Part shown: in pieces, positions 204-19,630 of the stretch
Position numbering within the stretch: the stretch's first letter is position 1
How the letters are laid out: every line of letters begins with the position of its first letter
IMG/VR virus record: IMGVR_UViG_3300042400_000624
Location: 1-21,822 of that record
DNA from: a virus
DNA: 21,822 nucleotides
Reading direction: 5' to 3' (one strand)
Program-made: the position numbers and the translations under genes
Notes under the pieces: model-generated
Database searches by the model: none
What the model was told of the DNA's origin: nothing
Seen by the model: the letters and a program-made list of their open reading frames with translations, nothing else

Positions 204-235
204 AACTTATACTTAATAAAAAGAGAGAGAGAAAA

Positions 236-504: not shown

Positions 505-537
505 AACTTATACTTAATTGAAACGAGAGAAACGAAA

Positions 538-1389: not shown

Positions 1390-1419
1390 AACTCATACTT
1401 AATAAATCGGAGAGAGAAA

Positions 1420-1665: not shown

Positions 1666-1698
1666 AACTTATACTTAATAAAAAGAGAGAGAGAGAAA

Positions 1699-2025: not shown

Positions 2026-2059
2026 AACTTATACTTAATAAAAAGAGAGAGAAAATAAA

Positions 2060-2465: not shown

Positions 2466-2497
2466 AACTTATACTTAATAAAACGAGAGAAAATAAA

Positions 2498-2871: not shown

Positions 2872-2905
2872 AACTCATACTTAATTGAAACAAGAGAGAA
2901 TAAAA

Positions 2906-3178
2906 ATGAATAATCACCCAAACTGGACTAGAATTGATTGTAACTCAAATGGTTGCCCACGTTATGTTTGTCACTTCTTATTGCTTAATACCAGAGAAGA
3001 AAAATATGGTTCTCGGTATTACAGTGTAGAAGAAAAATATGCCTTGGCTCTAAAGCGTTCTAGACCATTCAAAGGCAAAAAGTTCCATAATAAACAATTC
3101 GGTGGTGGGATTGTATTTGCGACTTATGACATTGATGGTTTGATTGATAGAATCGGTGATGCAGTTAGTGCTTGTTGA
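2906..3178 (+). CDS. Small basic phage protein with clustered cysteines (90 aa)
   Basis: ATG at 2906 after AAGAGAGAATAAAA. Cysteines at about 12, 17 and 22 (C-x4-C-x4-C) with a terminal Cys90, and a basic, glycine-containing centre (KRSRPFKGKKFHNKQFGGG) that could contact nucleic acid. There is no fourth nearby ligand to make a clear zinc finger. The last codons (AGTGCTTGTTGA) resemble a decayed copy of the cassette promoter's upstream block. Confidence 0.7.
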   Translation: MNNHPNWTRIDCNSNGCPRYVCHFLLLNTREEKYGSRYYSVEEKYALALKRSRPFKGKKFHNKQFGGGIVFATYDIDGLIDRIGDAVSAC

Positions 3179-3210: not shown

Positions 3211-3555
3211 GGAAGCAAGGCTGCCTCAAAATGTTGATTGAATTCAATAAGTGCTTGGTCTTGCTTCTAACTTGAATAATAAAATCATTGATCTACCAGT
3301 CATAGGTGACTCTCTCCACCGATTGATTGGGTGTGATCTGGTTTGTTATAAATCGTTTGATATACGTCCTCTCTCACGTGTATTAGGCGATTGTTGTACC
3401 CGACTCAGGATAAGTCTCTCTCCTTATCTCTGAGTCACCTATTCTTTTCCATCATCATGAACGATGATGTGGTTCATTGGATCATTGTATGTGATTCGAT
3501 TAAACTCTTTGTGTTCCTTGACTCTCTCCTCGGAGTACAAAGTGTTTGATCGAAC
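3211..3555 (+). ncRNA. Multi-hairpin RNA displaying four CUCUCUC loops
   Basis: This non-coding stretch folds into consecutive hairpins. F: 3211-3220 with 3259-3268. A: 3290-3338, inner stem GGTG/CACC, loop ACTCTCTC (3309-3316). B: 3351-3367 with 3376-3392, 17 bp including four GU, loop CCTCTCTC (3368-3375). C: 3402-3414 with 3423-3436, 13 bp and one bulge, loop TCTCTCTC (3415-3422). D: 3450-3456 with 3463-3469, loop ATGAAC. E: 3495-3517 with 3532-3554, 22 bp and one mismatch, loop containing ACTCTCTC (3521-3528). Every long hairpin (A, B, C, E) shows CTCTCTC, complementary to the GAGAGA(G) ribosome-binding sites of cassettes P1-P7. GU wobbles within the stems argue for an RNA rather than a DNA function. 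No independent promoter or terminator is certain. It may be processed from P7 read-through, and TATAAATG at 3180-3187 is a weak late-promoter-like match. Confidence 0.7.
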
Positions 3556-3596
3556 AATGAATATCCCTTATTTCTTACGAAAGTTCAACAAAGTGC

Positions 3597-3625
3597 TTGA
3601 TTTCTTCCAACAGTCTTGTTATAAT
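3597..3625 (+). promoter_or_regulatory. Class I cassette promoter P8
   Basis: TTGATT (3597-3602), 17-nt spacer, TATAAT (3620-3625), AACTCATACTTAATT. The leader differs from P1-P7: it has AAAAGGCAAACAAA before the ATG and no GAGAGA. Confidence 0.85.
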
Positions 3626-3654
3626 AACTCATACTTAATTAAAAGGCAAACAAA

Positions 3655-3873
3655 ATGAATACAGAACAATTAATCTTTATGATGGAAAGTATCGCTGGGC
3701 AAGCTCGTTCTGAGGGACAATTTTGCAAATTTGATCCTGTTCTACCATCAATAGACATAAATGGTGTGTATTATTTCCAAGAATGGCAAGCAGAGGAATT
3801 ATTAGAAACTGTTCCAGAAGGAATTTCTGTTGAAGATTATCTATTATATGTAAGTCAAAGTTGGGGTGAATAA
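3655..3873 (+). CDS. Small acidic phage protein, unknown function (72 aa)
   Basis: ATG at 3655 with AAGG nearby as ribosome-binding site. Acidic, with VYYFQEWQAEELLETVPEG and a C-terminal SVEDYLLYVSQSWGE. Not recognised. Followed one base later by the 3875 gene in the same cassette. Confidence 0.7.
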   Translation: MNTEQLIFMMESIAGQARSEGQFCKFDPVLPSIDINGVYYFQEWQAEELLETVPEGISVEDYLLYVSQSWGE

Positions 3874-3874
3874 C

Positions 3875-4021
3875 ATGAAAGTAAGTGAATTGATTGAGAA
3901 ATTAAAAGAAATGAATCAAGATGCAGAAGTTTCATTTGATGAAGGTGGTTGTTATTATGATATAGATAATGCCTCTGCTGATTATGAATATGTTGTTTTA
4001 TCTGGTAAAAAAGTTTATTAA
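3875..4021 (+). CDS. Small phage protein of the MKVSELIEKLKEM type (48 aa)
   Basis: ATG at 3875, one base after the preceding stop. 48 residues: an N-terminal helix (MKVSELIEKLKEMNQDAEV), then SFDEGGCYYDIDNASADYEY and a basic end. This N-terminal motif is common among short hypothetical phage proteins I recall, but no function is known to me. Its TAA abuts the next promoter. Confidence 0.7.
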   Translation: MKVSELIEKLKEMNQDAEVSFDEGGCYYDIDNASADYEYVVLSGKKVY

Positions 4022-4027
4022 AAGTGC

Positions 4028-4056
4028 TTGATTTCTTCCAACAGTCTTGTTATAAT
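4028..4056 (+). promoter_or_regulatory. Class I cassette promoter P9
   Basis: TTGATT (4028-4033), 17-nt spacer, TATAAT (4051-4056), CTCATACTTAATT. From AAAGTGCTTG to the leader it is nearly identical to P8, including the spacer, which suggests recent duplication. The leader has GGAG, not GAGAGA. Confidence 0.85.
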
Positions 4057-4081
4057 AACTCATACTTAATTGGAGAATAAT

Positions 4082-4378
4082 ATGTCAACTGTATGTAATT
4101 TAAAATTAACATCTAATCAAATTGCTTCTATCATTGCTCAATCAAACTTCTCTAATGAAGAATTAAAAGCAATTCAACAAACTGTTAAAGACCGTGCTGA
4201 GAAGAATAACTTAGTAACATTGGTTGATATCAATGTTGGTGATAACATTCAATATTCTGGACCACTTGGTGGTATTCGTAAAAGTAAAGTGTTTGGTGTT
4301 AGTCCAAAGTTTGTTACTGTAAAATACAATGGTGTATTGATTTCTGTTAATCGTTCAAAAATTATACAAGGAGAATAA
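4082..4378 (+). CDS. Small phage protein with beta-barrel-like C-terminus (98 aa)
   Basis: ATG at 4082 is preferred over an in-frame TTG at 4070 because GGAG (4072-4075) lies correctly before it. Residues 1-45 are probably helical (LTSNQIASIIAQSNFSNEELKA is part of this), and residues 50-98 look like an SH3/KOW-type barrel (VGDNIQYSGP, KSKVFGVS, FVTVKYNGVLISV). The domain call is by pattern only. The next ATG overlaps almost directly. Confidence 0.75.
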   Translation: MSTVCNLKLTSNQIASIIAQSNFSNEELKAIQQTVKDRAEKNNLVTLVDINVGDNIQYSGPLGGIRKSKVFGVSPKFVTVKYNGVLISVNRSKIIQGE

Positions 4379-4379
4379 T

Positions 4380-4559
4380 ATGTCAATGATCGCTTATGAA
4401 GTCTATGAAAATCAAAATTACATAGACACAGTCTACTTTACAAAAGATTGTGATGAACAATACATCAAGGATACCTTAATAAATCACGATGGATATCCTG
4501 CTAACATTGTATTGCAAGATATTGGTATCGAGGGAGAAACTGATATAAATTATTATTAA
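4380..4559 (+). CDS. Small phage protein, unknown function (59 aa)
   Basis: ATG at 4380, with AAGGAG at 4368-4373 inside the end of the previous gene. 59 acidic residues, MSMIAYEVYENQNYIDTVYF at the start. Not recognised. It ends just before promoter P10. Confidence 0.65.
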   Translation: MSMIAYEVYENQNYIDTVYFTKDCDEQYIKDTLINHDGYPANIVLQDIGIEGETDINYY

Positions 4560-4565
4560 AAGTGC

Positions 4566-4622
4566 TTGATCTTCTGGAGCTGATAAGGTATAATAACTCA
4601 TACTGAAATTCTAAAGAATTTC
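4566..4622 (+). promoter_or_regulatory. Class I promoter P10 with leader hairpin
   Basis: TTGATC (4566-4571), 17-nt spacer, TATAAT (4589-4594), AACTCATACT. Unlike the other cassettes, the leader then holds a hairpin: GAAATTC (4605-4611) and GAATTTC (4616-4622) around a TAAA loop. The hairpin sits about where transcription begins, so it may stabilise the 5' end of the six-gene mRNA or act as an operator. Confidence 0.75.
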
Positions 4623-4648
4623 TTCCTAATAAAAAAAGAGATTATTTG

Positions 4649-4954
4649 ATGATTGAACCATTAGATTTTAGCAAATACGAAGTTCCAGAATTCCCACATT
4701 TTTTCACAGAAAATCAATTGGAAGCCATAGTGGAATGGCATCAGATCAATGATTCTGTTACTAAGGAATTCAGAGCAGACCTTGAAGATTACTTGATGAA
4801 TTATTTAGCAATAGAGTTGGGTGAAGAGTCTATTCATCTCTCTAAGATTAGAAAATTGGTTGAGATAGCAATGGATTATGTGGAAGATTATGATGAGGTT
4901 GTAAACCTTGCTGTTAAGATGTTACCTTTATTACAGGCAGATAAATTATGTTAA
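4649..4954 (+). CDS. Acidic helical phage protein (101 aa)
   Basis: First gene of the P10 operon. ATG at 4649 with AAGAG upstream. Predicted all-helical and acidic (NQLEAIVEWHQIND, KEFRADLEDYLMNYLAIELGE, MDYVEDYDEVVNLAVKML). No family recognised. It overlaps the next gene by 7 nt. Confidence 0.7.
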   Translation: MIEPLDFSKYEVPEFPHFFTENQLEAIVEWHQINDSVTKEFRADLEDYLMNYLAIELGEESIHLSKIRKLVEIAMDYVEDYDEVVNLAVKMLPLLQADKLC

Positions 4955-11030: not shown

Positions 11031-11296
11031 ATATAAATGAAGTATTAAACTCATTAAATGGATTTGATGCAAAAGAAAATGATGAGTTGGAAACTATTGC
11101 ATCAACTGTTGCTGATTTATCTGAATTATATAAAGATAATCAAATCACTGATTCTGAATATCAAGAATTATTGAAAGATTTACAATTAGAAAAATCTATC
11201 ACAGTGGATGCTTCTGATTTAAATGCAAAAGCGCAATTGAAATTTATTATTGATACTGCAATTACTATTGCCGCTACAGCAGCCAAAGCGATATAA
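11027..11296 (+). CDS. Small acidic helical protein (89 aa)
   Basis: ATGA overlap with the lipoprotein gene. Acidic helices (NDELETIASTVADLSELYKD, DSEYQELLKDLQLE) end in a hydrophobic alanine-rich helix (FIIDTAITIAATAAKAI), which could associate with membrane. Function unknown. It is directly followed by the cyclase start. Confidence 0.7.
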   Translation: MNINEVLNSLNGFDAKENDELETIASTVADLSELYKDNQITDSEYQELLKDLQLEKSITVDASDLNAKAQLKFIIDTAITIAATAAKAI

Positions 11297-11297
11297 T

Positions 11298-13346
11298 ATG
11301 AAGAAACTACTCTTATCCCCTTGGATGGCATTACTCACATTATGTTTAATCGTAGGGTTAAGAGTAGTTGACCCAACATTTGTAGAGAGTATTCGATTAA
11401 GATATTTTGATACTCTCTTAACACAAGACATTCAACAATCAGATATAACATTAGTAAACATAGATGATGCAACACTCAAACAAAAAGGACAGTTTCCATT
11501 CCCACGGAAAGAATACGCAACGCTTGTACGGGACTTATATAGCAGGGGTGCTGGTCTTGTCGTTCTGGGTATTTTTATGCCTGAGCACGATAGGTTTGCT
11601 ACAGATGATGTCTTAACTCAAGTATTTCAAGAGTATCCAGTAGTATTACCTCAAACTGGTACTAATGATACATTTGAAGAAACTTATAAACCATTTAGAC
11701 CTGGAGTATCAATAATTGGTACTGGTGATGTAGGAGTTAAATATGAGAACATACTTCCAAACATACAAGTATTCAATGATAGTGCTGCTGGTGCTGGTGT
11801 TGTTAACACACTCCCAGAAATTGATGGCGTTACAAGAAGAATCCCAATGGTGGTCTCTTCCAAAGGATTATTGTATCCGAGTCTCAGTCTCGAAACCCTG
11901 CGAGTTGCATCAAATGACCCATCATTCCAAGTTAAAGTCAATGAAGGATCAATCGAAGCAGTCAGAATTCCTCAGTTCGGAAAAATACAAACAGACAACC
12001 TCGGTAGAATTTGGGTTAAACCCTCGAGATTTAGAGAATTTTCATCCGTCAATTTACCAGATGACTTTAAAGGGGCAATCGTTATTGTTGGGCTCACAGC
12101 AAAAGGGCTCAATAATCCCGTTGCAACTTCTAATGGAGCAGTCTTTCCTCATTACGTTCAGGCATCAGTATTAGAAACTCTTATAAAAGGTATAAATATA
12201 TCGAGACCTGATTATGCCGATGGAGTAGAAATCCTTGCTGTACTCATTCTTTCAATTATATCAATAACGTTAGCAAGGTGGAAATATGGAATTCTTATAT
12301 TTTGTGGCATCATTGGTTCTATTTACCCTATTTCTAATTATCTATATACCAGTCTATATTATCTTTTCGACATTACAATACCTATATTCGCTCTTGTTGC
12401 GGTTTATGGGCACACCTACACAGTCAAATTCCTAACTGAGTTAAGTCAAAAACTTCAAATCAAAAAACAATTTGGTTCTTATGTTTCTCCAGTAATGGTT
12501 GAAAGATTACAAAAGAATCCTGAACTGATTAAACTTGGCGGAGAACGAAAAGAACTTTCAATTGTAATGACAGATCTTAGGGGATTTACCACTCTCGGTG
12601 AATCTTATGGTGATGATGTAGAAGGTCTTACCAGTATTATGAACGATTATATGACCGCCATTTCTGAACCAGTATTAGAGAATGATGGTTGTCTTATTAA
12701 ATTCATTGGTGATGCTAGTTTACATGTTCATGGTGCTCCACTTGATGACGAATTTCATGCCAAAAATGCTGTCAAAACTGCATTAGAAATGATTGCTGCT
12801 GTAGATGGTTTTAATGAATCATTAATAGCAAAAGGTAAACCAATTATCGGTATGGGTGCTGGTGTTAATACTGGACAAACACTAATAGGTAATATCGGTT
12901 CTAAATCTAGATTTGGTTATGATGTATTAGGAGATTCAGTATCTACTGCGGCAAGATTAGAAGGTCAAACCAAATCTTATGGTGTATTATTAATCATTGG
13001 TCCAGAAACTGCTAAACTGGTTAAAGATGATTACTTTGTTATTAAGTTAGATAATATTGCTGTTAAAGGTAAAACTGTTGGATTAGATATTTACACAGTA
13101 TTACAACCAGATAGATATAATAAATTGGAATTTGCAAATGCTAGAACTGTTCATAAGAAAATGTTTAAACATTATTGTAAACAAGAATGGGCATATGCTG
13201 ATACAATGTGTATGGATTTAATTGGATCGTTTAATGGCGAATTAGATTACTATTATGAGATGATGCGTAAAAGAATTGCAGGATATATGACTGATGATTC
13301 TTTCCCAAAGAACTGGAAGGGTACATTTGTAGCAACAAGCAAGTAG
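11298..13346 (+). CDS. CHASE2-domain class III adenylate cyclase
   Basis: 682 residues from the ATG at 11298. Upstream in-frame codons lie inside the previous gene. Order: N-terminal TM (~7-23), extracytoplasmic CHASE2 sensor (~25-300, with YFDTLLTQDIQQSDITLVNI), three TM helices (~308-378), cyclase domain (~415-600), and the conserved CHASE2-cyclase tail (YYYEMMRKRIAGY, WKGTFVATSK). Metal Asp426 (VMTDLRGFTTL) and Asp472 (KFIGDAS), adenine-selecting Lys468 and Asp542, and transition-state Arg553 are present. The usual Asn at 549 (VNxAAR) is Ser (SVSTAAR), possibly a subfamily trait. It would make cAMP from ATP at the inner membrane in response to an unknown periplasmic cue. A FecR-domain protein, a common neighbour of such cyclases in bacteria, is encoded in the facing operon. 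Confidence 0.92.
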   Translation: MKKLLLSPWMALLTLCLIVGLRVVDPTFVESIRLRYFDTLLTQDIQQSDITLVNIDDATLKQKGQFPFPRKEYATLVRDLYSRGAGLVVLGIFMPEHDRFATDDVLTQVFQEYPVVLPQTGTNDTFEETYKPFRPGVSIIGTGDVGVKYENILPNIQVFNDSAAGAGVVNTLPEIDGVTRRIPMVVSSKGLLYPSLSLETLRVASNDPSFQVKVNEGSIEAVRIPQFGKIQTDNLGRIWVKPSRFREFSSVNLPDDFKGAIVIVGLTAKGLNNPVATSNGAVFPHYVQASVLETLIKGINISRPDYADGVEILAVLILSIISITLARWKYGILIFCGIIGSIYPISNYLYTSLYYLFDITIPIFALVAVYGHTYTVKFLTELSQKLQIKKQFGSYVSPVMVERLQKNPELIKLGGERKELSIVMTDLRGFTTLGESYGDDVEGLTSIMNDYMTAISEPVLENDGCLIKFIGDASLHVHGAPLDDEFHAKNAVKTALEMIAAVDGFNESLIAKGKPIIGMGAGVNTGQTLIGNIGSKSRFGYDVLGDSVSTAARLEGQTKSYGVLLIIGPETAKLVKDDYFVIKLDNIAVKGKTVGLDIYTVLQPDRYNKLEFANARTVHKKMFKHYCKQEWAYADTMCMDLIGSFNGELDYYYEMMRKRIAGYMTDDSFPKNWKGTFVATSK

Positions 13347-13354
13347 GAGGAATT

Positions 13355-13426
13355 ATGTGGGAAACACCAACTTATATTGATATTCGTTTAGGATTTGAAG
13401 TAACTTGTTATATTTTAAATAGGTAA
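13355..13426 (+). CDS. pqqA: PqqA, precursor peptide of pyrroloquinoline quinone
   Basis: A 23-residue ORF beginning MWETPTYIDIRLGF, then EVTCYILNR. It aligns without gaps to bacterial PqqA (for example, Klebsiella MWKKPAFIDLRLGLEVT...). It keeps the cross-linked Glu15 and Tyr19 in E-V-T-x-Y, the conserved Trp2, Pro5, Asp9-x-Arg11-Leu-Gly13 and the NR ending. The ribosome-binding site is nearly ideal (TAGGAGGAATT) and starts within the cyclase stop codon. PqqE joins Glu and Tyr to form PQQ, the cofactor of methanol and other quinoprotein dehydrogenases. No other pqq gene is in the window, so host PqqB-E would be needed. Confidence 0.9.
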   Translation: MWETPTYIDIRLGFEVTCYILNR

Positions 13427-13431
13427 TTAAA

Positions 13432-13464
13432 ATACTGCGCATAGTTTTATATTATGCGCAGTAT
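13432..13464. terminator. Bidirectional terminator between convergent operons
   Basis: ATACTGCGCATA (13432-13443) and TATGCGCAGTAT (13453-13464) form a perfect 12-bp stem with a 9-nt loop between the ends of the pqqA and holin operons. U-tracts are weak on both sides, but position and symmetry fit a shared terminator. Confidence 0.75.
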
Positions 13465-13473
13465 AATCTATAC

Positions 13474-13845
13474 TTACTCTTTAGTTTCAGCCATTTTCTC
13501 TTTTGTTCTACCAAAAGCAGTAATACCGATAATAGCACCCATTGATAGGTGATATAAACCACCACCTTGTAATGTAACTGCTTGCCACATCTCTAAATGT
13601 TGACCAGGATTCATATACTGAAGTACGTTATAAAGAATCGGACCAACCATAAAGTCAAATAAACAAATAGCCATATAACTAATTGCCATCATCGGACGCC
13701 ATTTAGAAGTCATAAAATCTTCTTTTGGAGCAGGTGCAGGTGCAGGTACTGGGTCTTTTGTTAAATCTATCATTGGTTCTATTTCCTTTTTAATTGCAGG
13801 TTGTCTTGGTTTTCTCGGTTTTTTAACTATCACTTCTTCTGCCAT
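13474..13845 (-). CDS. Holin, 3-TM/GTA-type family
   Basis: 123 residues. A basic/proline N-terminus (KKPRKPRQPAIKK; PAPAPAPKED) is followed by SKWRPMMAISYMAICLFDFM (TM, ~47-70) and LQGGGLYHLSMGAIIGITAF (TM, ~92-112), ending GRTKEKMAETKE. The WRP..ICL.DF and LQGGGLYHLSMGA..G..AFGR blocks match a holin family I know from T4-like marine phages and gene transfer agents. It would permit endolysin release at lysis. AAGGAG before its ATG is formed by the last codons of the FecR gene. Confidence 0.8.
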   Translation of the reverse strand: MAEEVIVKKPRKPRQPAIKKEIEPMIDLTKDPVPAPAPAPKEDFMTSKWRPMMAISYMAICLFDFMVGPILYNVLQYMNPGQHLEMWQAVTLQGGGLYHLSMGAIIGITAFGRTKEKMAETKE

Positions 13846-13846
13846 T

Positions 13847-14908
13847 CTATTCTCCTTGTTTAATTATAATAGTGTTAGATGTAGATGATAAATTACTCAC
13901 ATTAACTTTTGTCCCATCTTGTATCATTGTTATGTTATAACCCTCTTCTTTATTAATTAATAATGTAGCCTTTTGATTCACAGTTCTTTGGACTTGCCAA
14001 TTAGATTGCTTGTCTATTGTTAATACTTGATTATTAGCATTATATCCTGCTCTAAATAACGACACAATCGCGGAAGGATTATCAAGAGCATTAGACAAAT
14101 AATCTACCAACAATAAATCGGCATTTAATACATCAGCATATTGTTCATATGGATCATAAAACACTTTTACAGATAATACATCTAAAGTTAGTCCATTAAA
14201 ATCTAATGCTGATCCCGAATTATTATCTTCAATTAATTTCTCAACAATCTCTGCAGGTGGTTGTACAATCATCATATTACTAATAGACGATTCACTAATA
14301 GACAATAATACAGGACTTAATGGCTTAACTTCATTAGATGACACTAATGTTGCCTGAAATGCCTGATTCAATACAACCGAACCTACAGATGTTTGAACCT
14401 CTATCTCTCCTACTGTCCCATCAATATTGGGAAGTAATATTACCATTGACTTCCCAATTTCGTCTACTGTCATAGTAAATGCTGTACCTCTAACTGCTAT
14501 AGTTGCAGTTGGAGTGTTAATTGCAACATTTTTGTTATTGGCGTGTGCTATATTACCAGACGCATATCTTACAGTTCCTATAGCACATTTCAATGCTAAT
14601 TTACCAACACTTTTATTATTAGGATCATAGACAAAATCATCTATGACTAATTTACTATTCTCAGTTACTCTAACTTGAGTATCATCTTCAAAAGATATAC
14701 CAACAACACTATTGGCAGTCTCAACTACATCCATTGACTCAACACTAAAATCTTTCTTTGATTCTAATGCCTTTTTCTCTCTGGTAATAGAAGCATTACC
14801 TGTTTGTTCAGTTACTTTTCCAATACCAGCATTAATGTTGGGTGATTGAAACAGTAGCATTATCCCCAGACAAATTAAGAATAGCCGAATTTGGATTTGT
14901 AGTTCCAT
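13847..14908 (-). CDS. Secreted FecR-domain protein
   Basis: 353 residues with signal peptide MELQIQIRLFLICLGIMLLF, cleaved near NINA (~27). The FecR domain (~30-155) shows GKVTEQTGNASITREKKAL, VVETANSVVGISFEDDTQVRV, NSKLVIDDFVYDP, GTVRYASGNIA and TPTATIAVRGTAFTM. No transmembrane anchor or anti-sigma N-terminus is present, so it is not a canonical FecR signal transducer. This soluble periplasmic type is commonly found next to CHASE2 cyclases. Its first 77 nt overlap the curlin gene's end in another frame, encoding the signal peptide there. It could be the ligand or partner of the CHASE2 sensor across the terminator. Confidence 0.88.
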   Translation of the reverse strand: MELQIQIRLFLICLGIMLLFQSPNINAGIGKVTEQTGNASITREKKALESKKDFSVESMDVVETANSVVGISFEDDTQVRVTENSKLVIDDFVYDPNNKSVGKLALKCAIGTVRYASGNIAHANNKNVAINTPTATIAVRGTAFTMTVDEIGKSMVILLPNIDGTVGEIEVQTSVGSVVLNQAFQATLVSSNEVKPLSPVLLSISESSISNMMIVQPPAEIVEKLIEDNNSGSALDFNGLTLDVLSVKVFYDPYEQYADVLNADLLLVDYLSNALDNPSAIVSLFRAGYNANNQVLTIDKQSNWQVQRTVNQKATLLINKEEGYNITMIQDGTKVNVSNLSSTSNTIIIKQGE

Positions 14909-15539
14909 CTTGGGTTATCTCTATGGTATTATAGTTTCCAATATTGGATATGGCGATAGAATGACCATCAGAATTAGAAGTACCGCCAGCGCCAATCTGA
15001 GTAGTTGTGATTTCATTATTAGAACCTATTATAGAAAAAGTATCGACAGTAAATGTGCTATTAATATTGCTTGTTAATAGGTTATTATTACCTGTCATTG
15101 TTAAATTGTAATTGTAGTTACTAGAATTATTTGTGGAACCTATATTCATTACTGTTGAGTTAGTATTACCAGTAATATTCATATTCAAAGTTCCAGTATC
15201 AGTTCCCATAGAACCCATATTCAAAGCACTTGAGTTACTATTACCTGTTTGAGTGATATTAGCAAGAGTATCACCACCATAAATCATACCAGTTAAAGCA
15301 TTGTCAATACCATCTTGTATAATGGTTGCTAATATAGTATTTCCGTCAATTTGAAAAGATGGTGCTGAAACTGAATCTGGATCACCAACTTTGTTATTAG
15401 AACCTGTTTGTGTAATAGTCACAACAGAATTATTTGCATTAGTTTGGTCGATGTAGACGGAATTACCGCCACTATCTGCCAATGAAGAACTTATCATACA
15501 AGATATGATAAGAACTAAAATACTTCTTAAGATGTTCAT
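14832..15539 (-). CDS. Curlin-like amyloid subunit (CsgA/CsgB type)
   Basis: 235 residues with signal peptide MNILRSILVLIISCMISSSLA. The mature protein is built of Gly/Asn/Ser/Thr/Gln-rich curlin-like repeats: NSVYIDQTNANNSVVTITQT, GSNN, TLANITQTGNSNSSAL, SIAISNIGNYNTIEITQDG and a terminal NATVSITQH. These alternate beta-forming and GxNN turn elements as in CsgA/CsgB. The central repeats drift to Met/Asn-rich forms (NMNITGNTNSTVMNIG). It would be exported through the CsgG encoded just upstream and polymerise at the cell surface. CsgA and CsgB roles cannot be separated from sequence alone, and only one subunit gene is present. Confidence 0.85.
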   Translation of the reverse strand: MNILRSILVLIISCMISSSLADSGGNSVYIDQTNANNSVVTITQTGSNNKVGDPDSVSAPSFQIDGNTILATIIQDGIDNALTGMIYGGDTLANITQTGNSNSSALNMGSMGTDTGTLNMNITGNTNSTVMNIGSTNNSSNYNYNLTMTGNNNLLTSNINSTFTVDTFSIIGSNNEITTTQIGAGGTSNSDGHSIAISNIGNYNTIEITQDGTTNPNSAILNLSGDNATVSITQH

Positions 15540-16328
15540 TTATTCTTCCCTGTTAAAATGTTTTGAAAACCTCCATAATGATTTCTGTTCACCTTTAATA
15601 ATTAATTCTTCTACTGCCAAATCTAAAGCAGATTTCAATGCGTATATACCTGCTTCAGTTTTTGTAGCACCAATTTCACTTTCGAATGATTGAGTTCCAG
15701 TATCAAAGAATTTAAAAACAGCAACTCCTGCTGTATAACTTAATATAGTTTTTTGCACATTCACTGTAAGTAAAACTTCTCCAGTTTGTGTACTGATTGC
15801 TCTTAATGAAACAGTCACCATATCTTCCTGATATTGTGTGTCTGGTCCAATTCCCATATAACGAAGACCTATACCACCTGTTCTTATATTAGTATCATAC
15901 GATACAATAGCACCCTCTAATATCATACCAGCATATAAAATAGATCCAATTTGCGCGGGATCTTTTACTTCATCTCTTGCTGATCTAATCAACTGTCTTT
16001 CTTTTAAAAGATTATCTAATCCAACTCTTTCAACTACTCTAAACCACATACCATTACCAGCATCTTCAAGTGCCTTCAATAATATTGATTCACCACCTTG
16101 TGTTACGGCAGTAGAAAATTTTGCAATATTAGCAGATTCTTTTCTCTGACCAGTTTTATCTAAAAATGAATAGACCGCAACAACTACTTTACCGTCTTTT
16201 GGAGGTGGTAGTGTTGTTGTACGTTTCTCTTTAACAGCCAATAATTCTGGTTCATTGGTCCAATAATTAAAGGGTGTCAGCCAAGTAGAACATCCAGTTA
16301 ATAAAAAACATAATAGTATAATACGCAT
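15540..16328 (-). CDS. csgG: CsgG, curli secretion channel lipoprotein
   Basis: 262 residues, close to E. coli CsgG (277). Lipobox LTGC with Cys13. Then DGKVVVAVYSFLDKTGQRK, WFRVVERVGLDNLLKERQLI, ILYAGMILEGAIVSYDTNIR, GGIGLRYMGIG, YQEDMVTVSLRAISTQTGEV and VNVQKTILS, all typical CsgG blocks. CsgG forms a nonameric outer-membrane pore for unfolded curlin. It starts one base into the CsgF stop and is followed immediately by the curlin gene, so the three are clearly one unit. Confidence 0.95.
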   Translation of the reverse strand: MRIILLCFLLTGCSTWLTPFNYWTNEPELLAVKEKRTTTLPPPKDGKVVVAVYSFLDKTGQRKESANIAKFSTAVTQGGESILLKALEDAGNGMWFRVVERVGLDNLLKERQLIRSARDEVKDPAQIGSILYAGMILEGAIVSYDTNIRTGGIGLRYMGIGPDTQYQEDMVTVSLRAISTQTGEVLLTVNVQKTILSYTAGVAVFKFFDTGTQSFESEIGATKTEAGIYALKSALDLAVEELIIKGEQKSLWRFSKHFNREE

Positions 16329-16783
16329 TAGAATGTAAAACTCCCTACAGGTATTACTACTTGTGTTACATTACCTGTCAAATTGTCGGTAATTGATAAG
16401 GATATTTCATCTGCAGATTTATTGTATTGTATAGTATTCCCTTCAATAGTTACTGTACCACTATTTTGTGGATTCTCACCAAATAAATTATTAATCAATT
16501 GTGTTGATAGTTGAGCATAAACACGACTTTCAAAGTTATTCATAAACTTTTGGAGATTCGTATTTTTAGATGCTGCTGCCGCATCTGCCGCAAGTTTGGC
16601 GGCATCTCTAGTTTGTTGATCTTTTTGTGATTGTAATGCTTGTTTCCTAGTTGTTTCGGTATTCTCTATTGTTTGTACGTGCAAAGAATATCCTATACCA
16701 TTAAATGCAGGTGATTTGAAAGCAAAACTTTGTTCTGCTTGAACATTGCTTGATATGAATAATAGTAAGATTAGAATTCTCAT
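16328..16783 (-). CDS. csgF: CsgF, curli assembly factor
   Basis: 151 residues with signal peptide MRILILLLFISSNVQA. The mature N-terminus EQSFAFKSPAFNGIGYS matches the CsgF segment that inserts into the CsgG pore (…Y.F.NPxFGG in relatives). Helical middle (RKQALQSQKDQQTRD; LAADAAAASKNTNLQKFMNN), then a beta end (GTVTIEGNTIQYNKSADEIS; TQVVIPVGSFTF). CsgF couples secreted subunits to the outer membrane. It overlaps the 87-aa gene by 4 nt upstream. Confidence 0.92.
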   Translation of the reverse strand: MRILILLLFISSNVQAEQSFAFKSPAFNGIGYSLHVQTIENTETTRKQALQSQKDQQTRDAAKLAADAAAASKNTNLQKFMNNFESRVYAQLSTQLINNLFGENPQNSGTVTIEGNTIQYNKSADEISLSITDNLTGNVTQVVIPVGSFTF

Positions 16784-17043
16784 TCTGACTCCTTTTGCTT
16801 TTGGGCATTCTCCCGCATTTGTAACACAGTGTTTAGTTTTGCTGTGAGTCTAAGTAAATCATTATCAAGTAACCGTATTCTGTCAATCAAGGTTATCAAT
16901 TCCTTTGATGCTTCGCCCAATACTGGATTAATTTCTTCAATAGTAAATGACCAAACATACTTTACCATTCGTAGCATATAACCTGCTGCGATAATAGGAA
17001 ATCCATATTTGTTTATAAGATCTGCTATTTGTGTTACGTCCAT
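16780..17043 (-). CDS. Holin-like single-TM protein, third of three related (87 aa)
   Basis: N-terminal amphipathic part and TM (YGFPIIAAGYMLRMVKYVWSF, ~14-34), then a charged helix (LITLIDRIRLLDNDLLRLTA, KLNTVL). The TM-plus-heptad layout resembles small phage holin-like proteins and the two genes upstream. Four-base overlap with CsgF. It could insert in the inner membrane and support curli export or lysis. Role unknown. Confidence 0.65.
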   Translation of the reverse strand: MDVTQIADLINKYGFPIIAAGYMLRMVKYVWSFTIEEINPVLGEASKELITLIDRIRLLDNDLLRLTAKLNTVLQMRENAQKQKESE

Positions 17044-19406: not shown

Positions 19407-19438
19407 AAGTCGTAAATTGATAAAAGAGAGAATATATT

Positions 19439-19630
19439 ATGAGTAACAAAATCGTAGAAAAATACAAAGCAATGCCAATCGAAGACCTTTTTGGTGAATT
19501 CTCTGATTGGTTCAAAGACGTCAATGGCGTCCGTCCTCGTCATATTGCTCCAACTGATAGAGATTCTATCATTGCTTGGATTATTAACGAAGTAGTTTTT
19601 GATGATCCTGCTTATTACCAAGAGGTGTAA
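19439..19630 (+). CDS. Small conserved-type phage protein with WFKDVNGVRPRH motif (63 aa)
   Basis: ATG at 19439 after GAGAGA. Residues ~20-34 (DWFKDVNGVRPRHI) match a motif (W.KDV.G.RPR) that I recall in many short phage proteins, with flanking helices (NKIVEKYKAMPIEDLFGEF; RDSIIAWIINEVV). Activity unknown. It leads a chain of overlapping genes to the window end. Confidence 0.75.
   Translation: MSNKIVEKYKAMPIEDLFGEFSDWFKDVNGVRPRHIAPTDRDSIIAWIINEVVFDDPAYYQEV

Follow-up and report, generated by a model that had tools for sequence, protein, structure and literature searches.

A putative phage RNA with repeated CUCUCUC hairpin loops complementary to the ribosome-binding sites of early genes

The locus and its small genes

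The record IMGVR_UViG_3300042400_000624 represents a bacterial virus recovered from environmental DNA, and the whole stretch analyzed here, referred to as the window, comprises 21,822 bases. Small genes in series fill its first 4.6 kb. Most of them have very short leaders, and most follow a strong promoter with the pattern AAGTGCTTGAYT-N17-TATAATAACTYATACTTAAT. We refer to these genes as early, a presumptive assignment based on their sigma-70-type promoters, small size and clustering. The virus is probably a T4-like myophage, because its set of CsgF, CsgG, curlin-repeat, FecR and CHASE2 proteins is also found in phage Melnitz and partly in HTVC008M. This set occupies positions 11295-17043 of the window, where the curli (type VIII) secretion genes, encoding CsgG, CsgF, curlin-repeat and FecR-domain proteins, lie on the minus strand and a CHASE2-adenylate/guanylate cyclase gene lies on the plus strand. 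A counterpart of this set is annotated in Melnitz, a Methylophilales phage, and partly in HTVC008M, a Pelagibacter phage.

Within the block of small genes, positions 853-920 match the Rfam tRNA model with 31.7 bits, barely over the threshold, and ARAGORN makes no call there. The stretch directly before this match (790-860) looks similar by eye, and positions 790-920 may hold degenerate tRNA-like copies. Further downstream, positions 2906-3178 encode a small TreK-like protein (Pfam PF24229, Staphylococcus phage terminal-repeat protein), with its closest relatives in the Aeromonas phages PhAER-4 and 4L372D. This gene lies directly 5' of the RNA segment described below.

A segment with four CUCUCUC hairpins

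The heptamer CTCTCTC occurs four times on the plus strand of the window, at 3310-3316, 3369-3375, 3416-3422 and 3522-3528, always inside the putative RNA. The other seven matches to the motif are GAGAGAG on the plus strand, and every one of them lies in a gene leader, just upstream of an ATG. The chance expectation for both strands of the window is 1.5. The region 3270-3580 folds with -103.4 kcal/mol (z = -7.8), a value that none of the shuffled sequences equaled. In this fold, all four CTCTCTC copies are placed in 8-nt hairpin loops of the type N-CUCUCUC, with mean unpaired probabilities of 0.96-1.0. Of the 305 seven-base windows in the segment, only 8 are contained entirely in hairpin loops, and the probability that all four copies would fall into loops by chance is therefore about 5e-7.

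The four predicted hairpins, all on the plus strand, differ in their stems. The first (W1, 3296..3330) has 11 bp with an internal loop and presents the loop ACUCUCUC with the motif at 3310-3316; an outer extension of its stem pairs too. The second (W2, 3351..3392) has 17 bp and the loop CCUCUCUC (motif 3369-3375), the third (W3, 3402..3436) has 13 bp and the loop UCUCUCUC (motif 3416-3422), and the fourth (W4, 3495..3554) has 22 bp and again the loop ACUCUCUC (motif 3522-3528). A fifth hairpin near 3450-3473 does not carry the motif. An earlier note, made from the sequence of the window, had pointed out four CTCTCTC loops on long stems. Its loop positions are exact on the plus strand and all fall in hairpin loops of the fold, and its coordinates for W2-W4 match ours, while the stem of the first hairpin is shorter than it gave.

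We assign the whole putative RNA, which the fold z-score supports, to 3283..3570 on the plus strand, with the 5' end set by a candidate promoter and a provisional 3' end, which gives a length of about 290 nt, compared with about 450-500 nt in the relatives. This candidate weak promoter (3255..3283, plus strand) has AAGTGCTTGGTC as its -35 region, as in the early promoters of the phage, and AATAAA 17 nt downstream. It was read by comparison with the other promoters of the phage, and a promoter scan of the window did not call it. The RNA has no clear terminator within the window, and Rfam returned no match to it at E values up to 1.

The same kind of RNA in two further lineages

Searching with the promoter pattern led to lineage A, which consists of the closely related records IMGVR_UViG_3300020704_000002 and 3300031813_000066 and has several small proteins in common with the window. 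The RNA of lineage A, identical in 500 of 500 bases between the two records, lies directly 3' of a gene for a T4 nrdC.10-like ATPase; it starts about 30 nt after the stop codon, with no obvious promoter of its own. It displays five CUCUCUC hairpins and one small CUCUCC hairpin, and ends in a good intrinsic terminator, GACCGGA...UCCGGUC followed by UUUUUUU. Lineage B (IMGVR_UViG_3300044641_007991) encodes a copy of the ATPase that is 53% identical to that of lineage A, and its RNA has four CUCUCUC and two CUCUCC hairpins. Its 3' end shows a moderate, terminator-like GACCTGC...GCAGGTC hairpin with a U-rich tail. A terminator hairpin with a U run is good in lineage A, moderate in lineage B and absent in the window.

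The loop motif in all three lineages is NCUCUCUC(C) or CUCUCC. Each CUCUCUC copy lies in a hairpin loop (4/4 in the window, 5/5 in A and 4/4 in B, 13/13 in total), with mean unpaired probabilities of 0.85-1.0 across the lineages, and from the share of seven-base windows in loops, the chance of this arrangement is about 9e-8 for A and about 4e-6 for B. The loops of the window and lineage A have 8 nt, once 9, and are closed by a G-C or U-A pair, while those of lineage B range from 7 to 10 nt with complementarity kept. In the 20 kb around the RNA of lineage B, CTCTCTC occurs nowhere else on the RNA strand. When the two strands were compared, the RNA strand folded with z-scores of -8.9 (window), -9.6 (A) and -10.9 (B), against -2.5, -5.2 and -7.5 for the complement, which is worse throughout. 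The numbers of G-U pairs in the RNA strand and the complement are 13 versus 3 in the window, 13 versus 10 in A and 11 versus 11 in B.

In a comparison anchored on the loops, no hairpin resembled one of another lineage clearly above the within-lineage background. A covariation test on homologous stems is thus impossible, because the stems are unrelated between the lineages and the two copies of lineage A are identical. We instead stacked seven hairpins chosen for their 8-nt loops and counted them as independent members of one type. In this stack of independent hairpins, as distinct from aligned homologous stems, 84% of the cells pair, versus 47% in shuffles, every one of the 10 stem positions varies on either side, and all shuffles and all slid versions have lower covariation scores. 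Stems that are unrelated and yet paired, together with loops that are the same, form the pattern expected from selection on the loop sequence and on stem pairing. The proposal of the earlier note that the loops are under selection is supported by the three lineages, in which the same loops top unrelated stems. The note had also said that a lack of compensatory changes, or coding in related phages, would speak against its idea. Compensatory changes are found when the stems are compared as independent hairpins, as opposed to aligned homologues, and the translated reading frames of the three RNAs have nothing in common beyond chance-level short matches. For the RNAs of A and B, Rfam finds unrelated families only, all of them weak and below threshold. 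With a stable fold, a strand bias and no conserved coding, the segment is apparently a structured non-coding phage RNA, as the note had assumed.

The array was found in three independent lineages in our searches. A blastn search of the region against phage records returned no match, and among the matches listed from viral and genome collections, there was no array of stable loops on varied stems outside these three. The best other viral candidates with triplets of CTCTCTC, among the matches listed, appeared by eye to be CT-rich low-complexity or repetitive sequence. Phages DLP_6 (Stenotrophomonas), TS9 and PhAER-4 (Aeromonas), Melnitz (Methylophilales) and HTVC008M (Pelagibacter) contain scattered CTCTCTC copies and no hairpin array; the one cluster in Melnitz was rejected, as it is inside an annotated gene.

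GAGAGA leaders as candidate targets

The ribosome-binding sites of many of the small genes are complementary to the loops. On the plus strand of the window, they read GAGAGAGAG at 223..231 (gene start 236), GAGAGA at 525..530 (538), GGAGAGAGA at 1409..1417 (1420), GAGAGAGAGAG at 1685..1695 (1699), GAGAGAG at 2045..2051 (2060), GAGAGA at 2485..2490 (2498) and GAGAGA at 2894..2899, the last preceding the TreK-like gene (start 2906) directly 5' of the RNA. An eighth site, GAGAGA at 19426..19431, precedes a gene starting at 19439 for which no early promoter was seen. The leaders named in the earlier note were recovered for the most part, with GAGAGAG before the ATGs at 236, 1420, 1699 and 2060 and GAGAGA before those at 538, 2498 and 2906 on the plus strand; one further gene, if its leader is 4566-4649, has only GAGA.

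An ATG follows GAGAGA after 2-14 nt in 15/18 cases in the window, 37/43 in A and 14/18 in B, counting overlapping copies and only ATGs that open at least 35 codons. No other ordering of these six bases ranks above GAGAGA as a start-site motif, and most rank far below. The RNA strands of the window, A and B contain 8, 25 and 12 distinct GAGAGA leaders, respectively, nearly all in the block of the RNA; the neighboring 20 kb contain one in A and one in B. All seven promoter-led window genes before the RNA have such leaders. After the RNA, at 3597-4650, there are three promoter-led genes with the same promoter type, and their leaders do not contain GAGAGA.

Simple duplex energies take no account of the strain that arises when an 8-nt loop pairs along its whole length, nor of what it costs to displace the ribosome. 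By this measure, the loop binds the GAGAGA leaders at -10.5 (window), -10.2 (A) and -11.7 (B) kcal/mol, and the 16S tail, a standard one that may not be that of the host, binds them at -4.8, -5.2 and -6.8 kcal/mol. The loop surpasses this standard tail, again possibly unlike the host's, for 41 of 41 GAGAGA leaders, while for the leaders of other genes the 16S tail is on average the stronger partner. With a longer 16S tail (CACCUCCUUUCU; that of the host may differ), the difference becomes smaller but persists (in the window, -6.9 versus -9.4). The start-site positions of GAGAGA and these duplex energies agree with the claim of the earlier note that the loops complement many small early genes at their ribosome-binding sites. 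Sites of this GA-rich kind are also present in phages where no such RNA was found.

Loops and leaders differ together

The leaders of lineage B differ from the others. All 12 of its GAGAGA leaders contain GGAGAG, and five larger loops of its RNA leave CUCUCC unpaired, while most leaders in the window and lineage A do not have the extra G and the loops there end at CUCUCUC. The leaders of lineage B pair at -12.0 with their own loop versus -8.9 with the loop of the window and A; the longer B loop is not disfavored by the leaders of the window and A.

The leaders of a fourth phage, IMGVR_UViG_3300027741_000242, contain GAGAGAGGAG. A single intergenic hairpin (L460:3517-3556) shows CUCCUCUCUC in its large loop, the exact complement of these leaders, with the first C of the loop motif paired in the fold, and a terminator-like hairpin follows. 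The leaders bind this loop at -22.0, and they also bind the 16S tail well (a standard tail, which may not be that of the host). As a single hairpin recognized post hoc, this case is suggestive of a further match between loop and leader.

Discussion

We consider that the observations are best explained by a multi-loop antisense RNA that would occlude the ribosome-binding sites of early genes, a reading that we regard as clearly more probable than its rivals combined. The RNA is probably a switch that would turn down many viral genes at once, because the loops are retained in two other lineages whose stems are quite different. According to this model, a non-coding phage RNA would expose the CUCUCUC loop in several identical copies, on stems that are rigid and free to vary, and each loop would pair about 6-8 nucleotides with the GAGAGAG or GGAGAGA ribosome-binding site of one small early mRNA. 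Such pairing would cover the Shine-Dalgarno site and block 30S binding, and as the RNA accumulates, the whole early set would be switched off together. Moreover, the motif is present in the leaders of the ATPase genes of lineages A (adjacent to the RNA) and B (about 900 nt upstream), as it is in that of the TreK-like gene of the window. Negative feedback is plausible because these upstream genes have tagged leaders, through which the RNA could act on them. The parts of this model that we infer from sequence are that a discrete RNA is transcribed, that it pairs with the leaders in the cell and that it represses them, as well as the direction and timing of the repression.

The main alternative, which we consider unlikely, is that the RNA acts as a general anti-Shine-Dalgarno sequence on host mRNAs, causing their shut-off, and that the GAGAGAG leaders of the phage soak it up or are tuned against it. 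CUCUCC also complements host ribosome-binding sites of the GGAG type, and the leaders of lineage B and the fourth phage contain GGAG, those of the fourth also binding the 16S tail well. The leaders of the window and lineage A, however, are poor partners of the standard 16S tail and excellent partners of the loops. As they fit the loop better than the ribosome, the phage leaders are favored as the dedicated partners of the RNA. Somewhat less likely still, the loops may bind a phage or host protein, with the complementarity to the leaders being incidental or indirect. Protein-sponge RNAs such as CsrB and RsmY also carry repeated identical loops on variable stems, and the loops of the window and A, nearly uniform in size and closing pair, would suit such a decoy array. 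If the protein were one that reads GAGAGAG, its decoy should nevertheless carry GAGAGAG itself and not the complement; in addition, the loops of lineage B vary from 7 to 10 nt with complementarity maintained, and from lineage to lineage, a different loop goes with a different leader.

We give slightly less credence to an ordinary structured 3' untranslated sequence or DNA-level element whose CT-rich loops reflect the GA/CT bias of these phages. The position of the lineage A RNA, shortly after the ATPase stop codon and without an obvious promoter of its own, would be compatible with this view. Bias, however, would not be expected to place 13 of 13 copies in loops; moreover, neither the window nor the 20 kb around the RNA of lineage B has CTCTCTC on the RNA strand outside the RNA, and when measured against shuffles, the RNA strand of each lineage folds better than the complement, with the G-U count of the window (13 versus 3) pointing the same way. 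It is very improbable that the segment encodes a protein and that the hairpins are by-products. Open reading frames of 52-64 amino acids do cross it, but none resembles one of another lineage beyond chance-level short matches, and the stems diverge completely while their pairing is kept.

The closest known relatives in design of the proposed antisense RNA are the rhizobial small RNAs alpha-r14 and NfeR1 ('cuckoo' RNAs), whose redundant motifs silence mRNAs by acting at the ribosome-binding site (PMC10746234; PMC7143759). As in the phage RNA, several hairpins expose the same anti-Shine-Dalgarno motif unpaired on hypervariable stems. However, the rhizobial motif is CCUCCUCCC, which is absent from the phage loops of the three lineages, where CUCUCUC(C) is found instead, and the rhizobial targets are the ribosome-binding sites of bacterial genes, whereas the RNA described here is phage-encoded, has 4-6 loops and is matched to an unusual leader of the phage's own early genes. 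Rfam gives no cuckoo-family match to the window RNA, although release 15 may lack that model. The phage RNA would thus work like alpha-r14/NfeR1 without being a member, because the motif differs and no family match is found. S. aureus RNAIII and Listeria LhrC also pair C-rich loop motifs with G-rich Shine-Dalgarno sites to block translation, LhrC through three redundant sites (PMC4132741). These regulators act in bacterial stress responses or virulence and use a UCCC seed, which differs from that of the phage loops (CUCUCUC or CUCUCC), and they have no sequence or gene context in common with the phage RNA. Among phage systems, the c4 antisense RNA of P1 and P7 uses complementary loops to block translation around a ribosome-binding site of an mRNA of the phage itself (reviewed in PMC12197685). 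It acts on the ant mRNA, in contrast to the one repeated seven-base code for many genes proposed here. The earlier note knew of no described phage RNA of this kind, and in the open-licence literature we likewise found no phage RNA of this multi-loop design; the bacterial alpha-r14/NfeR1 RNAs are nonetheless very similar, and closer than the RNAIII type with which the note had compared it.

In T4, early-gene control follows protein routes through RegA and RegB. A T4-like phage that silences its whole early set with one RNA reading a seven-base tag at the start codon would add an RNA route beside them. The RegB endoribonuclease cuts GGAG in early Shine-Dalgarno sites, including that of its own mRNA (PMC3014915). 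The phage-wide inactivation of many early mRNAs at the Shine-Dalgarno sequence would be alike in both cases, but RegB is a protein nuclease that cuts, whereas the RNA is proposed to mask. Early-gene shut-off by such an RNA, with multivalent loops that could bind several mRNAs simultaneously, would thus be a counterpart to RegB. We are evenly divided on the broader proposition that dozens of early genes are tagged by one leader motif (GAGAGAG, GGAGAGA or GAGAGAGGAG) and silenced through it by one RNA, with loop and leader co-evolving. If it holds, it would be a rare case in which the seed of a small RNA and the leaders of its regulon are seen to co-evolve, and the portable principle would be that the stems are free, the loop is fixed and one tag serves many genes.

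A separate stretch of the fourth phage, L460:600-860, is non-coding and structured and contains nine copies of CTATGC (630-833), with GCATAG being rare. It may be a further loop-motif RNA that uses another code.
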